Positions 1 to 38,790 of a stretch of DNA of 38,790 bases are shown here, piece by piece. The notes under the pieces were generated by a model. It was not told the origin of the DNA, ran no database searches, and saw only the letters and a list, made by a program, of their open reading frames with translations. The stretch comes from Methylovulum psychrotolerans (GTDB lineage: Bacteria; Pseudomonadota; Gammaproteobacteria; Methylococcales; Methylomonadaceae), in NCBI RefSeq assembly GCF_002923755.1, contig NZ_PGFZ01000001.1, positions 473,209 through 511,998 of the forward strand, in the 5' to 3' direction. Within the stretch, counting starts at the first letter, position 1. Each line of letters opens with the position of its first letter. The position numbers and the translations under genes are program-made.

Positions 1-1864
1 CAACGGGCTGGGCGGCAACGACATCCTTTATGGCGGCACGGGCAATGACACCCTGGCGGGCGGCACGGGCAACGACTACCTCCAAGGCAATGACGGGCTT
101 GACACCTATGTGTTCGGCATAGGCGACGGGCAGGACGAAGTTTACAATTACGACACCGACAACAGCACGGACACTGTGCAGTTCACCAATCTGGCACTGT
201 CCGGCCTGACCGCCCTGTTTGAAGACGGCAACTACGGCCTCGTCTTCCAGTACGGCAGTGGCGACCAGGTCACCATCGACAATTATTTTTATTTCAGCGA
301 CATCAACTGGCAGGTAAATCAAGTTCAGTTTACAGGCGGCGACACATTAACCAACTTTATCGTCGGCACTACCGGAAAGGATATTTTGGTGGGTACTGCC
401 GGCAACGATGCGTTGAACGGACTTGCAGGTGCCGACACCATGAGCGGCGGAACGGGTAACGACCTTTATTTTGTTGATAACGTTGGTGATATTGTCAATG
501 AAAATCCCGCCGCAGGCATCGACACGGTGCAAAGCTCGATTTCTTACCAGCTAACCGCTAACGTTGAAAACCTGACCTTATTGGGTTCTGCCGCTATTAA
601 CGGAACAGGCAACAACCTTGCCAATACCCTCATAGGTAACTCGGCAGCTAACGTGCTGGATGGCGGAACGGGGGCAGATAGCTTAAAAGGCGGACTCGGT
701 AATGACAGCTATATTGTTGACAATATCGGCGACACGGTGATTGAAAATACCAATGCAGGCGTTGATACGGTACAAAGCTCCGTCACTTACACCTTGGCCG
801 CTAATGTTGAAAATCTGACCCTGACCGGAACCGCCGCCATCAACGGTATCGGTAACAGTTTGGCAAATACGGTCATTGGCAACATTGCTAATAATACGCT
901 GAATGGCGGTAAGGGTGCGGACAGCCTGATAGGCGGTTTGGGTGACGATATTTATATCGTTGACAATATAGGCGATACGGTCACGGAAAATATCGGCGAA
1001 GGCACAGATACCGTGCAAAGTGCCATCTCCTGGACGCTGGGCGCGAACCTGGAAAACCTGACCCTGACCGGGATTGCCGCCATTAACGGTACTGGCAACA
1101 GCCTTGCCAATACCCTGATCGGCAATGCTGGGGCAAACATACTCAATGGCGGCTCTGGTGTCGATAACTTAAAGGGTGGCTTAGGCAATGACATCTATGT
1201 AGTGGATAATATTGATGACAAGGTGTATGAAACTGTCGACGCAGGCATCGACAAAGTGCAGAGTTCGGTCTCGTATGCCTTGACGGCGAATGTCGAAAAC
1301 CTGACTTTGACCGGCAGCAAGGCCATTAACGGCACCGGAAACCTGTTCGCCAATGTGCTGCTCGGCAACACCGCCAACAATGTCTTGAACGGCGGTGGCG
1401 GAGCGGACACTCTGACAGGCGGCGCGGGCAGCGACACCTTCGTGTTCGGCACGGTGACAGGCGGCTCTGACAAGGTGCTGGATTTTGTCTCCGGCACCGA
1501 CAAGCTGCAAGTGCTGGACGCGGCGCTGGGCCTGTCCATCGGCAACGGCGACCATAACATCGACAACGCTGCGCTCATCAACGGCCTAGGCGGTTTTTCC
1601 GCCTTATCCGAACTGGTGGTGGTCACTTCCAACATCATCGGCGCCATCACCACCGCTACTGCCGCCACCGACATCGGCAGCGCCGCCAGCAGTTACGCGC
1701 TGGGCGACACCCGCCTGTTCGCCGTGGACAACGGCGTGGACAGTGCTTTATACCTGTTCAAATCAGCGGGTGCAGATGCTGTGGTCAGTGCCGGTGAATT
1801 GACCTTGTTAGGTACGTTGCAAGGCACGGCACAAACGGCTCTGGCGGATTATGGGTTTGCCTGA
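1..1864 (+). CDS. RTX (haemolysin-type calcium-binding) repeat surface protein, 5' truncated by window edge
   Basis: The frame is open from base 2, so the gene starts upstream; GTG at 110 is internal. The visible part begins with RTX nonapeptides of the GGxGNDxL type, then one HCBP-related segment (GDGQDE ... DNYF). Four imperfect modules of about 87 residues follow, each combining a GGxGxD calcium site, a YxVDNxGD stretch, an ANVENLTL strand and an INGTGN strand. The C-terminus ([17 protein letters not shown] onward) resembles the bluetail domain of putative surface RTX proteins and probably carries the type I secretion signal. No catalytic domain is visible, so a structural, adhesive or S-layer-like role outside the cell is inferred. 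The gene is a paralogue of the next RTX gene; their C-terminal ~145 residues are nearly the same. The GGxGND tracts are certain; the biological role is not. Confidence 0.9.
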
Positions 1865-1932
1865 TAAACCTCAAACAGAGGGGTATCTACACCCATCCTT
1901 AAATTAAGGGACGGGCAGAAAATAATTGCGGG

Positions 1933-1969
1933 TAAGGCCTTTCAGGTTTTAAAAATCTGAAAGGCCTTA
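1933..1969. terminator. 13-bp perfect inverted repeat after the first RTX gene
   Basis: TAAGGCCTTTCAG (1933-1945) pairs perfectly with CTGAAAGGCCTTA (1957-1969) around an 11-nt A/T-rich loop, 69 bp after the RTX stop. There is no strong T-run, so it is a candidate rather than a classical intrinsic terminator. Confidence 0.5.
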
Positions 1970-1981
1970 TGGAATCAGGTG

Positions 1982-2038
1982 TTAAGCAAACGACAGGCTA
2001 AAAGTTGGCCTTTAAACTCAACAGCCTGTGTTGCTTAA
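1982..2038. repeat. Imperfect inverted repeat in the RTX intergenic region
   Basis: TTAAGCAA (1982-1989) and ACAGGCT (1993-1999) are mirrored by AGCCTGT (2023-2029) and TTGCTTAA (2031-2038). This makes a two-part stem with a small internal asymmetry. Its function is unknown; it may mark the edge of an inserted or deleted segment, because an RND gene relic follows directly. Confidence 0.4.
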
Positions 2039-2121
2039 TGGGCGACGGTCTCTATGAACACTGCATTCCTACCCTGAAACTAAACGCTTGCCGTTAGCCT
2101 TTCTTAATATTTAGCCGATTC

Positions 2122-2344
2122 TTCCTGGAAGCCATCCGCCAAGGTTGCGCCCAACGCCCGCCCCGTCATGATGACCGCCACCATCGCCCTGCTCGGCCTC
2201 GTACCCTTCCTGTTCGCCAACGGCCCAGGTTCGGAGGTGCAAAAAACCCTAGCCATCGTGGTCATCGGTGGCCTAATCACCTCAACATTACTGACCTTGG
2301 TGATGCTGCCGACGCTGTATCGGTGGTTTGAGGAAAAGCGGTGA
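2122..2344 (+). pseudogene. Relic of the C-terminus of an RND (CzcA/HAE1-like) efflux pump, frameshifted
   Basis: In one frame, 2128-2145 reads EAIRQG, the conserved sequence before the last transmembrane segments of RND pumps. About 5 codons later the match continues in another frame as RPVMMTA, GLVPFLF, then VVIGGLITSTLLTLV and LPTLYRWFEEKR, stopping at TGA 2342-2344. This is the classical C-terminal end of heavy-metal or multidrug RND transporters. Nothing upstream encodes the rest of the pump, so about 70 of more than 1000 residues survive, with a frameshift near 2150-2160. It is a decayed remnant and not a functional gene. Confidence 0.75.
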
Positions 2345-2404
2345 TATAAGCCGCACCAATATCACCGCCATACCAGAATAAATGCCAAAAAAATCTGAAA
2401 AACA

Positions 2405-2433
2405 TTGCAATGTACCTTGGTTATTAATATACT
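2405..2433 (+). promoter_or_regulatory. Sigma-70-like promoter of the second RTX gene
   Basis: TTGCAA (2405-2410), a 17-bp spacer, and TATACT (2428-2433) give a good sigma-70 arrangement. It predicts a start near 2440 and a leader of about 50 nt before the ATG at 2490. Confidence 0.5.
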
Positions 2434-2489
2434 AACAATAAAAATCACCAAAGACCTATCAGAACCCCATAAAACTCTGGAGATAAGCG

Positions 2490-5400
2490 ATGGCAACGTA
2501 TAACGGCGACAATACTAATAACATTTATATCGGTACAAATACGGATGATACTATTTATGGCAACGGCGGGGATGATAGCCTTAATGGTGTGGATGGCAAC
2601 GATCAAATCTATGGTGGTGACGGCAATGACATCCTGAATGGCGGCCTAGGCAATGATTACCTGCAAGGCGATAACGGGGCGGACACTTACTTGATCGCCA
2701 AAGCGGACGGACAAGATGAAATTGGCAATTACCACTCCGACAACAGTATGGATGTGGTCACGTTCACCGATATGGCCAGCTCCGACATCACTTCCGTCAC
2801 CCGTGCCCAAGACGGAAGCGACAACTTGATTCTGACCTACGGCACGGGCGGGCAACTGACCGTGGACAATTACTTTTCCGATGCAGCCTACCAAATTGAC
2901 ACGTTCCAGTTCACCGACAGCGTTTGGGGGTTAGCGGACATCATTGCCCGCGCCTCGGCCATCACCGGTACCGCGGATAGTGATTTCTTGTCTGGTTTTA
3001 ATGACTGGTCAAACACGCTTTTGGGGTTGGGCGGCGACGATTACCTGTTTGGCGGCATCGGTGATGATGTGCTTATCGGTGGTGACGGCAACGATTGGCT
3101 ACAAGGCATGGAAGGCAACGACACTCTGATAGGCGGCACGGGTAATGATATAGTGAGCGGCGGATACGGGATTGACACCTACCTGATCGCCAAAGCTGAT
3201 GGACAGGATGAGATTGACGACACCCTAGATGACAGTGCCGATGTAGTCATTTTCACCGATATGACCCGCGCTGACATCACTTCCGTCACCCACTCCCAAG
3301 ATGGGAGAAATAGTTTGGTCTTAACCTATGGTACAGATGGGCAACTGACCGTGGATGGCTATTTTAACGATACGCCTTACCGAATCAACACATTCCAGTT
3401 CACCGATGGCACTTGGACGTTGACAGACATCCTCATCCGCACCTCAGTCATCACTGGCACTGCAAATGATGACCTATTGTTTGGTTTTGATGCCTGGTCA
3501 AGCACTATTTACGGGCTGGGTGGTAACGACACCCTGTATGGCGGCAGCTTTGCCGATACGATTATCGGCGGTGACGGCAATGATACTCTGAATGGCGGCC
3601 TCGGCAACGACTACCTGGAAGGCGATAACGGCGCGGACACCTACCTGATCGCCTTGGCTGACGGGCAGGATGAGATTAACAATTACGACACCGACGGTAG
3701 TGTGGATGTGGTCACGTTCACGGATGTGGCCCTAAGTGATTTGGCTGGTATCAGCACAAATGGCACCAACCTATACCTTAATTATGGCAACGCTAGCCAG
3801 TTGGTGGTGGACAATTATTTTTACGGCGACGCTTATCAAGTCAACCAATTTCAATTTGCTGGCGGCGATGTGCTGGCCAATTTTATCATCGGTACAGACA
3901 GTAGCAACGATACCCTGACCGGCACTAACGCCAATGATGCAATAAGTGGCCTTGGCGGTGCTGACACAATGGCCGGTGGTTTAGGCAATGACCTTTATTT
4001 TGTCGATAATGCTGGCGATGTCGTGACGGAAGCCAGCAGCGCGGGTACGGATACCCTACTGTCCAGCATCAGTTATACCTTAGCCGCCAATGTCGAAAAC
4101 CTCATCCTTACTGGCAGTAATGCCATCAATGGCACAGGCAACGACCTTGCCAACATGCTCACGGGCAATGCGGCGGCAAATGTCTTGGTCGGTGGCTTAG
4201 GCAATGACACTTATATCGTTGACAATGCCGCCGACAATGCCATCGAAAACAGTGGCGAAGGCAGCGATACCGTACAAGCGTCAATCACTTACAGCTTGGG
4301 GGCAAATATCGAAAATCTCACCCTGACCGGAACGGCAACCATCAACGGCACAGGCAATGGCCTTACCAATACCTTGATCGGTAACAGTGCCAACAATACC
4401 TTAGATGGCGGTATAGGTGCAGACACTTTGGTAGGCGGTTGGGGTGACGATCTCTATGTCGTTGACAATGCCGGGGATGTGGTCATGGAAGATACGGACG
4501 GAGGCATCGACATCGTGCAAAGCTCCATCTCCTGGACGCTGGGCGCAAATTTGGAAAACCTGACCCTGACAGGCACCGCCGCCATTTACGGCATCGGCAA
4601 CAGCCTTGCCAATACACTGATCGGCAATACGGGAGCAAACCTCCTTGATGGTGGTGCCGGCGTGGATAATCTAAAAGGCGGTTTGGGTAATGACCAGTAT
4701 AGGGTGGACAATATTGGCGACAAAGTATTTGAAAATGCGGGGGAAGGCACAGATACTGTACAAAGTTTGGTCAGTTACAGCTTGGTCGCCAATGTCGAAA
4801 ACCTCATCCTCCTCAATGCTCCGGGAGCCATCAACGGCACGGGCAACGAATTGGCTAATATGCTGACGGGCAACACGGCCGCCAATGTCTTGGATGGCGG
4901 TGCCGGAGCGGACACGCTGACAGGGGGGTTAGGCAACGACTCCTTTATCGTGGACAATGTCGCCGATAGCGTGGTCGAAAACAGCGGCGAAGGCACCGAC
5001 ACCGTGCAAGCTTCGGTTTCTTACATCTTGGCGGCCAATGTCGAAAATCTGACCCTGACAGGCTCCGCTACCCTCAACGGCACCGGTAACACATTGGCTA
5101 ACGTGCTGACGGGGAACAGCGCGATGAACATCCTCAACGGCGGCGCGGGGGCGGACACCCTGACAGGGGGTGCTGGCAGCGATATTTTCGTGTTCGGGAC
5201 AGTGACGGGCGGTGCGGACAAGGTGCTGGATTTTGTCTCCGGCACCGACAAATTACAAGTGTTGGACGGGGTGGCTGGCTTATCGATAGGCAACGGCGAT
5301 CATAGCATCAACAATGCCGCGCTCATTAATGGCCACGGCAGTTTTTCCACATTATCCGAGCTGGTGGTGGTCACTCCCAACATCATCGGTGCTATCACGG

Positions 5401-5612
5401 CCGCCAATGCCGCCACCGACATCGGCAACGCCACCAGCAACTATGCTGTGGGCAATACCCGCCTGTTCGCCGTTGACAACGGCGTGGACAGTGTCCTGTA
5501 CTTGTTCAAATCAGCGGGTGCGGATGCCGTGGTCAGTGCCGGTGAACTGACCTTACTGGGCACATTGCAAGGCACGGCACAAACGGCTTTGGCAGATTAT
5601 TCATTTGCTTGA
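2490..5612 (+). CDS. RTX repeat surface protein (1040 aa), bluetail-like C-terminus
   Basis: The ATG follows GGAG at 2479-2482 with 7-nt spacing. The protein starts directly with RTX nonapeptides ([16 protein letters not shown]) and has no Sec signal, as expected for type I secretion. Residues ~60-470 hold three HCBP-related segments (ADGQDEI ... TVDNYF ... FQFTD), each linked to RTX tracts. Residues ~470-900 hold five modules of about 87-90 residues with VDN, ANVENL and INGTGN signatures. The last ~145 residues match the C-terminus of the upstream paralogue almost residue for residue. No enzymatic domain is visible; a calcium-stabilised extracellular structural or adhesive role is inferred. 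No secretion genes (ABC exporter, HlyD-type) are in this window. Confidence 0.92.
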
Positions 5613-14931: not shown

Positions 14932-15111
14932 AGGTGGGTTGCTCACGGTTAGGTTTAGGACAAGCGCAGTGTAAAGGCTTAGCCCGTCACCGTAAGCCGA
15001 GATTTGCCCGAAAAACACGGGCAATTTGCCCGCCGTTACGCCCCCCGCTTTCCAGATCACCGCCCTACCCTTAGAATGGTGGCTTGTCTGGGCTGTTGGA
15101 TTTTTTCTTTA

Positions 15112-15292
15112 ACGTTACGCAGTAACGTGCTTTACTCCCGTTTGCCGCGCCGAGCATCGCAGGGTTTGTCGGGATAAGCCCGAATACCCGCAGGGCATAA
15201 AGGGGCGCGGCAGGGATGCCGCGCGTCGGTAAAGGGGCAGGAGCCCCTTTTACCGACCCCCGACAAAACCGAGAAGCGCAGGAAGAAGCGGC
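15112..15292. repeat. Structured dispersed repeat, copy A
   Basis: Starts with the palindrome ACGTTAC-GCA-GTAACGT (15112-15128). A near-perfect outer stem (GGGTTTGTCGGG with CCCGACAAAACC) encloses two hairpins. The first is GCGCGGCA, loop GGGA, TGCCGCGC. The second is GTCGGTAAAGGGGC, loop AGGA, with a 15-nt partner carrying one bulged T. Copy B at 38625 has the same architecture with compensatory changes. Short open frames here are artefacts of the repeat. Confidence 0.85.
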
Positions 15293-15452
15293 GACCGGGC
15301 CGCCTTTTCTTTGGATACTTTCTTTTCGACTGCACGGATGCAGGAGGTAGAGCAATGCAGGAGCAATTGCCGAGGCGGAGCAAAAGAAAGTATCTCGCCT
15401 TCGGGTGCGAGAACCCGATTAAAAAAACCGTCGCGATAGCGACTCATCGCTA
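15293..15452. repeat. Second palindromic segment between the structured repeat and moxY
   Basis: GATACTTTCTTTT (15314-15326) pairs with AAAAGAAAGTATC (15381-15393) and encloses small hairpins CTGCA-CGGA-TGCAG and GCAAT...ATTGC. Further on are TCTCGC...GCGAGA and GTCGC-GATA-GCGAC. GGA triplets recur in loops (15336, 15343, 15360). No gene is visible; it forms the region immediately before the moxY-like ATG. Confidence 0.6.
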
Positions 15453-38609: not shown

Positions 38610-38624
38610 CGCTTATCATCACTG

Positions 38625-38790
38625 ACGTTACGCAGTAACGTGCTTTACTCCCGTTTGCCGCGCCGAGCATCGCAGGTTTTGTCGGGATCAGCCCGAAGGG
38701 GCGCGGCAAGGATGCCGCGCGTCGGCAGGTGGGCAGGAGCCCACTCTGCCGACCCCCGACAAAACCGAGAAGCGCAGGATCAAGCGGCAA
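38625..38790. repeat. Structured dispersed repeat, copy B (runs to the window edge)
   Basis: Same order as copy A: palindrome ACGTTAC-GCA-GTAACGT, a 12-bp outer stem (GGTTTTGTCGGG with CCCGACAAAACC), hairpin GCGCGGCA-AGGA-TGCCGCGC, and hairpin GTCGGCAGGTGGGC-AGGA with its partner carrying one bulged T. It lacks the ~16-nt insert seen in copy A after GCCCGAA. The rest of 38371-38624 holds only the upstream region of the L,D-transpeptidase. Confidence 0.85.

Follow-up and report, generated by a model that had tools for sequence, protein, structure and literature searches.

Among described RNA families, the closest to the sequence analysed here is TwoAYGGAY (Rfam RF01731), in which a stem, P1, encloses two hairpins with GGA loops. 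We take its clan, CL00106, to be that of the CsrA-binding RNAs. Hairpin loops of the form ANGGAN, with a free second base, are sites for CsrA/RsmA (RsmE), and CsrB, CsrC, RsmX, RsmY and RsmZ are single-locus sRNAs. Like the element described below, these sponge RNAs contain several GGA-loop hairpins (see also the RMfam paper, PMC4333381); the RMfam paper puts forward, as a prediction, the CsrA reading of TwoAYGGAY. A table in Weinberg 2010 (PMC2864571) rates TwoAYGGAY a probable RNA and probably not cis-regulatory, and assigns it no role.

The element differs from the sponge RNAs in being dispersed, decaying and mobile-like, and is known here from its sequence. It differs from TwoAYGGAY in its 3' pseudoknot domain, its mobility and its arrangement in two-armed units, none of which belongs to the Rfam model. 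In its own genome it shares with bacterial MITEs both the inverted repeats at its termini and the duplicated target sites, but the conservation of its interior fold extends far past those repeats. Our best reading, which we hold at about even confidence, is that this is a mobile non-coding element whose + strand carries an RNA fold of the CsrA-binding type. Among the papers listed by literature searches on the element's sequences, on CsrA with dispersed or mobile elements, on bacterial triple-helix pseudoknots and on methanotroph repeats, none describes it by title.

Window copies and the 5' domain

The window (the whole 38,790-nt stretch of the Methylovulum psychrotolerans genome analysed here, from contig NZ_PGFZ01000001.1) holds two copies, A and B (Table 1). 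The sequence-only reading had described in both a nested fold made of a small palindrome, an outer stem and two hairpins, with four arm differences in the second hairpin (P3), each matched by a change on the opposite arm; all of these features were found again, and P3 retains its bulged T and AGGA loop in both copies. Its limits for copy A, 15112–15292, hold for the 5' domain but not for the full extent of the copy, which reaches about 15443. Copy A (15090–15440) folds with a z-score of -5.1 and copy B (38620–38790) with one of -6.8, none of 100 and none of 200 shuffles, respectively, being equally stable. A covariance model of 55 copies, nine of them from the M. psychrotolerans genome and with both window copies left out, recovered the latter at 134.6 and 157.6 bits, which together with the z-scores places the window repeat beyond chance. 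The only further match of this model in the window at E up to 1 (11.2 bits, E 0.87; opposite strand of copy B) is at chance level.

A right terminal repeat was looked for in copy A and not found. Copy B (locus L025) continues past the end of the window into a run of Ns, an assembly gap, with duplicated element sequence beyond it, an assembly problem at the window end (38790) for which the repeat itself is probably responsible. The 17-nt insert seen in copy A (TACCC-NNN-GGGCATAAA) occurs at two different sites within copies (this one, L026, L028 and others), three times in tandem in L026, and looks like a tiny element inside the element. At the start of the window (1–5612), two ORFs with 243-nt repeats and GGxGND-like units look like RTX proteins.

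Table 1. Positions of element features in the window (numbered from its first letter)
Feature	Position	Strand	Details	Basis
Copy A, 5' palindrome	15112–15128	+	ACGTTACGCAGTAACGT; remnant of left terminal inverted repeat	
Copy A, outer stem P0, 5' arm	15142–15148	+	pairs with 15288–15294	
Copy A, P1, 5' arm	15162–15173	+	pairs with 15259–15270	
Copy A, 17-nt insert	15185–15201	+	TACCCGCAGGGCATAAA; missing in many copies	
Copy A, hairpin P2	15205–15224	+	loop AGGGAT, C-G closing (ANGGAN, CsrA/RsmA type)	
Copy A, hairpin P3	15225–15257	+	GTCGGTAAAGGGGC-AGGA-GCCCCTTTTACCGAC; bulged T; holds the four compensated pairs	
Copy A, P1, 3' arm	15259–15270	+		
Copy A, P0, 3' arm	15288–15294	+		
Copy A, pseudoknot S1, 5' arm	15300–15304	+	CCGCC; pairs with 15374–15378	sequence reading and family evidence
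Copy A, pyrimidine loop L1	15305–15313	+	TTTTCTTTG; parallel match to S2 purine arm; proposed third strand	sequence reading and family evidence
Copy A, pseudoknot S2, 5' arm	15314–15326	+	GATACTTTCTTTT; pairs with 15382–15394	sequence reading and family evidence
Copy A, optional module between S2 5' arm and S1 3' arm	15327–15373	+	C-ACGGAT-G hairpin (15330–15343) and AGGA sites	
Copy A, S1, 3' arm	15374–15378	+	GGCGG	sequence reading and family evidence
Copy A, S2, 3' arm	15382–15394	+	AAAAGAAAGTATC	sequence reading and family evidence
Copy A, second overlapping stem pair	15394–15418	+	CTCGC/GCGAG and TCGGGT/ACCCGA; pseudoknot or alternative hairpins	by eye, uncounted
Copy A, terminal hairpin	15430–15443	+	GTCGC-GATA-GCGAC	
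Copy B, left terminal inverted repeat	38622–38635	+	CTGACGTTACGCAG	
Copy B, P1, 5' arm	38675–38686	+	pairs with 38755–38766	
Copy B, hairpin P2	38701–38720	+	loop AAGGAT	
Copy B, hairpin P3	38721–38753	+	GTCGGCAGGTGGGC-AGGA-GCCCACTCTGCCGAC	
Copy B, P1, 3' arm	38755–38766	+		

The outer stems P0 and P1 enclose two GGA-loop hairpins, P2 and P3, and by eye some copies carry optional extra GGA hairpin modules. A covariation test over many copies, as the sequence-only reading had proposed, bore the fold out. Our alignment of the 5' domain (A1) comprised 55 of 80 cores from 17 genomes (M. psychrotolerans and 16 others), copies with inserts and some near duplicates being omitted, three false core hits having been removed, and loci L024 and L029 representing one site. 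Across 41 pairs, 97.2% of the 2248 pair cells were standard, with both-sided changes at 30 of the pairs, and the pairing exceeded all 500 shuffles on each of five measures (the covariation score, for example, was 0.444 vs 0.138 in shuffled alignments and at most 0.087 when slid). Mismatched cells were 54 GT, 10 AC (three of these closing loops) and 52 others; the resulting ratio of 54 GT to 7 AC after dropping the loop-closing cells, which counts cells and not independent events, points to the + strand as the one that folds.

The loops are more constant than the stems that hold them. In P2 the loop reads A-N-G-G-A-N, with the A and the GGA in all 55 copies and a free second base (1.48 bits), over 22 stem pairs, while the P3 loop has GGA in 53 of 55. 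Two loop features set the element apart from TwoAYGGAY, in that loop position 2 is mostly a purine and the P3 loop is often 4–5 nt long. Several hairpins with ANGGAN loops thus occur per predicted RNA, and by eye the optional modules carry more C-ANGGAN-G hairpins. Longer nested modules, with CAAATCCGC/GCGGATTTG-type stems and ATGGAT-like loops of their own, were seen at L026, L028, L097 and L427, in the M. psychrotolerans and Methylomonas genomes.

The 3' domain and kinship with TwoAYGGAY

Downstream of the GGA hairpins lies a second domain, whose typical stretch reads CCGCC-TTTTCTTTGG-ATACTTTCTTTT-GGCGG-AGC-AAAAGAAAGTAT, with the two stems S1 and S2 interleaved; in copy A an optional module interrupts the stretch midway. 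The search pattern used to collect these pseudoknots fixed most of S2 but neither L1 nor most of S1, and 81 of its 87 matches entered the alignment (A2), the remainder having too little upstream sequence. In A2, S1 was paired in 86.7% and S2 in 97.8% of cells. On three measures, namely cells paired, cells with a double change and the covariation score (0.353 vs 0.137 shuffled), A2 lay above all 500 shuffles; on the other two of the five, pairs with a double change (346 of 500) and further pair types (105 of 500), it did not rise above them.

Loop L1 (TTTTCTTT) matches the purine arm of S2 (AAAAGAAA) in parallel. Where a G of S2 shifts by one place, the C of L1 shifts along with it (51:0 and 0:22 among the 73 of 87 sequences that could be classed; Fisher p 4e-19, a nominal value because the sequences are related). 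A perfect parallel 8-mer was present in 76 of the 81 sequences when three offsets were allowed and in 65 in one fixed register; none of 2000 trials with shuffled arms gave as good a match, and perfect antiparallel matches occurred in 9 of 81. A U.A-U / C.G-C major-groove triple helix would require just this pattern, which likely reflects one, judging from the sequences, although H-DNA in the duplex may be an alternative source of the same symmetry. Like telomerase-type triple-helix pseudoknots, the domain is by covariation of the H type, with interleaved stems and a pyrimidine loop 1 parallel to the purine strand of stem 2; it differs from them in being bacterial, in having a very short loop 3 (~3 nt) and in that its triplex is proposed from covariation.

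Further 3', a second overlapping stem pair is followed by the terminal hairpin, whose loop is nearly always G-N-pyrimidine-A and so differs from the usual RNA GNRA loop (both by eye). In the Aeromonas loci L495 and L503 the pseudoknot is shortened, loop and stem both being reduced to three or four triples (by eye), which suggests that the length of the triple helix itself covaries.

All 13 Methylococcales matches had GGA-loop hairpins upstream of their pseudoknot (2 for a TCC control); so did 8 of 8 of the Selenomonadales type (control 1) and 5 of 12 from other Gammaproteobacteria (control 2); the proportions were 8 of 34 in Betaproteobacteria (control 4) and 0 of 5 in other phyla. These counts cover 72 of the 87 pseudoknot matches, assigned to groups by their record titles, or by likeness in the case of L325. 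At Betaproteobacterial loci (L264, L270, L288 and others) a conserved GTTTGAGCGNAGCGAGTTT-like hairpin replaces the GGA hairpins, by eye.

On sequence evidence we class the 5' domain as related to TwoAYGGAY without belonging to that family. The window gave no Rfam match at gathering cut-off (43 bits for RF01731), and a search with RF01731 of copy A (L001), L026 and L028 found nothing at E up to 5. Nor do the window copies have two AYGGAY loops on one junction: their P2 loops are AGGGAT and AAGGAT and their P3 loops AGGA. The kinship appears through intermediates. Clear element copies in Methylomonas score 23–38 bits with RF01731, under its cut-off, and in other genera the downstream pseudoknot is shared: RF01731 matches an Aeromonas locus at 51.4 bits and lists, in 13 genomes, 47 places down to E 10, three of them above cut-off; of the 30 places fetched, 18 had the pseudoknot within 260 nt downstream and none upstream, against 2 of 665 background windows. 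A reverse-strand control says nothing here, as the motif is palindromic on that strand. The three places above cut-off fail the strict pseudoknot test; by eye, the pseudoknot is shortened in two of them, loop and stem alike, and split by an insert in the third.

A reciprocal search with a model of our own (R1, 38 sources) found Dyella at 39–54 bits, five Thalassocella loci at 16–25 bits and one Selenomonadales place at 31.7 bits, with most Selenomonadales loci unmatched and the Aeromonas RF01731 locus at 13.4 bits (E 1.3). The same search found Lysobacter and a Desulfobacterales locus well, so that the kinship is reciprocated in part. One Selenomonadales genome, that of L268, has 23 TwoAYGGAY places below cut-off, several of them followed by the pseudoknot. 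Separately, an Rfam RAGATH-18 match (70.1 bits, L278:2046–2107) lies about 700 nt from a Selenomonadaceae copy.

Dispersal, turnover and two-armed units

A search of the M. psychrotolerans genome for further copies, another step that had been proposed for this repeat, returned 49 matches, some of them partial or pieces of one copy (40 of 80 first-look candidates were scored). Among its relatives, the family was matched in 30 of 61 genomes, which represent 14 of 28 genera (its own included), and in the class Gammaproteobacteria in 37 of 274 genomes (own included). Across the phylum, 11 of 398 genomes contained the exact 3'-domain pattern, and none contained the pattern read backwards. A scan of named genomes found at least 119 stretches, the 80 listed belonging to Beta- and Gammaproteobacteria, Selenomonadales and a few others. 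Cargo of plasmids or phages was rejected as an explanation, as plasmid records gave no match for the M. psychrotolerans form and two for a Variovorax form, and one viral contig carried the 3'-domain pattern. Relative to the next gene, copies in the own genome (n=30) were co-oriented in 18 cases, opposed in 9 and unknown in 3, and those in other genomes (n=84) in 34, 42 and 8; an orientation this near to random leaves a cis-regulatory leader or 3' UTR element unsupported.

The M. psychrotolerans copies bear both marks of a MITE: terminal inverted repeats (CTGACGTTACGCAG ... CTGCGTAACATCAG; terminal repeat CTGAYGTTACGCAG) and target duplications of 7–9 bp, the latter in 13 of 24 two-ended copies when an offset of up to 2 nt was allowed, with none seen at copy B. 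An ordinary MITE, in which nothing but the terminal repeats counts and the interior fold is left over from the past, would account for these ends and for a fold that decays by private mutation. At the same time, conservation of the interior extends over the order and the class, in many genomes without such terminal repeats, and its fold covaries across genera, so that we consider this account very improbable.

In other genera, the element, which here sits in a MITE-like unit, often forms a divergent two-armed unit. Among the 240 places listed from 31 genomes (all listed places of the class-wide search, with longer Methylomonas pieces), copies within 400 nt of each other were ordered -+ in 16 cases, +- in 1, -- in 2 and ++ in 4, and those within 2.5 kb in 39, 2, 8 and 9, respectively; in the predominant -+ order the 5' ends face each other, i.e. 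the order is divergent. Eleven of 13 units had two distinct arm types. Of three units in one genome (G609), all were of mixed type by eye over the first 30 nt and one by clustering on 70 nt. Where two units of a single genome were compared, their likeness gave out on either side at the terminal hairpin or no more than about 5 nt from it, and no target duplication was seen there by eye.

RAYT genes, which accompany REP/BIME repeats, were considered as a source of mobility. REP/BIMEs with RAYT are, like the element, intergenic, structured and often arranged as inverted pairs; the element differs in its length (~250–370 nt per copy) and in that no GTAG-type foot was seen. A RAYT gene lies between divergent copies at L132 (2047–2586) and L189. 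Of 60 loci examined around Y1_Tnp/RAYT matches, only L189 (on both sides) and L198 clearly contained part of the element, with a fragment at L208, L132 being a further case; the linkage of a RAYT gene to the repeat that marks REP/BIMEs was thus not found. Mobilisation by RAYT was set aside, since the L189 gene is flanked by a GTAG-type REP pair of its own and most of the RAYT loci examined are free of copies.

Turnover was followed in three genomes whose assignment to Methylomonas is inferred, using the best 30 of their 37, 46 and 51 matches; the element was located at 89 of these 90 loci, and the set gave at least seven orthologous groups. In six of seven groups, at least one element was strongly divergent in its stems at the same site and in the same orientation, between flanks 86–99% identical (by eye). 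One of these six had an allele common to two genomes, and one group was plainly vertical. At a site beside a nif-like gene, 8 of 22 loci carried the element, which could face either way.

Selection on the fold and its working form

Whether the fold is selected depends on the level at which one looks. The sequence-only reading had claimed selection on the + strand fold and had named, as what would speak against it, further copies whose mutations break stems as often as they preserve them. The covariation of the 41 pairs, the excess of GT over AC and the Hoogsteen-type covariation of L1 with S2 support the claim; private stem changes, which break pairs, go against it. Among 24 copies in the M. 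psychrotolerans genome, 13 private stem changes broke a pair, 3 gave G-U, none was re-paired and 2 involved gaps, whereas variants common to two or more copies comprised 5 re-paired double changes, 3 G-U and 3 breaks (p 0.015 with all three breaks, p 0.002 without two that we took for alignment artefacts). Private mutations mostly break stems, as the proposed refutation had it, but shared variants are mostly compensated or G-U; the fold is therefore kept in the lineages that spread and not in each resident copy.

Covariation could also arise from mutation instead of selection, if template switching corrects palindromes and gene conversion swaps whole hairpins. The paired P3 alleles of the own genome, with few intermediates, would fit such a process, as would the six Methylomonas groups in which elements diverge far beyond their flanks. 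On the other hand, the bulged T persists, the loops keep A-N-G-G-A while the stems change, S1 and S2 interleave and GT mismatches outnumber AC. Moreover, L1 and its S2 partner are mirror-symmetric and not inverted, so that palindrome correction would not create their covariation, and yet they covary (51:0 and 0:22). As a general explanation we regard mutation as improbable, while palindromes corrected on a template, and whole hairpins swapped between copies, may have contributed to the four P3 changes.

The main rival to our reading is that the fold acts as single-stranded DNA, in transposition or replication, its GGA hairpins and triplex being bound by a transposase or a host single-strand-binding protein with no RNA involved. 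Single-stranded DNA predicts most of the same covariation, and the ends of unit similarity at the terminal hairpins without visible target duplication, the fixed divergent order of neighbours, the unlike arms of most units, the stem-breaking private mutations and the near-random orientation to genes all fit it. In IS200/IS605 elements, however, the folded strands of the two ends are not on opposite strands, as they are here; the RAYT at L189 has its own REPs and most of the RAYT loci examined lack copies; and the ANGGAN loop with its free second base is the footprint of a known RNA-binding protein (see also PMC4333381). We therefore consider a role as single-stranded DNA unlikely, if still a serious contender.

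Under the reading of a mobile element with a CsrA-type RNA fold, the + strand would work as RNA, with a predicted start close to CCCGTTTGCC and a predicted end by the terminal hairpin. One weak promoter-like site (0.2 expected) lies just upstream of copy A, and around the copy there are nine terminator-like sites against 1.1 expected, including two + strand sites at its 3' end; a scan of one unit's spacer for sigma-70-like promoters found none. The paired C-ANGGAN-G hairpins P2 and P3 would dock a CsrA/RsmA dimer. Of the 61 genomes, 53 encode csrA, that of M. psychrotolerans included, with no CsrA match in four genomes that have element matches (G002, G003, G011 and G043, the last with weak element matches). 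These four genomes speak against the reading, as do the empty spacer scan, the near-random orientation to the next gene, the Betaproteobacterial and other-phylum matches that mostly or wholly lack GGA hairpins, the two pseudoknot measures that did not rise above shuffles, and the G-N-pyrimidine-A terminal loop. The triple-helix pseudoknot might protect or anchor the element RNA, and the fold as a whole may aid the spread of the element or its tolerance by the host, because selection on it is visible in the spreading lineages. A bolder version, which we find quite doubtful, is that the element represents a new class of bacterial mobile elements without a transposase of their own, whose two ends are each a large fold (a GGA-hairpin junction and a triple-helix pseudoknot), which spread by offering this fold as RNA to the host regulator CsrA and whose arms would be what is known as TwoAYGGAY.

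One caution applies beyond this locus, namely that compensatory changes between dispersed repeats can mirror the spread of an element and not a function of each copy for its host. For the TwoAYGGAY family, the results link an RNA with no assigned role to an element that is dispersed, turns over fast and occurs from methanotrophs to Selenomonadales. They also add to its kin a 3' domain in which a triple helix is likely, and show on which level selection acts on the fold. The element thereby offers a concrete route to the role of the TwoAYGGAY family.
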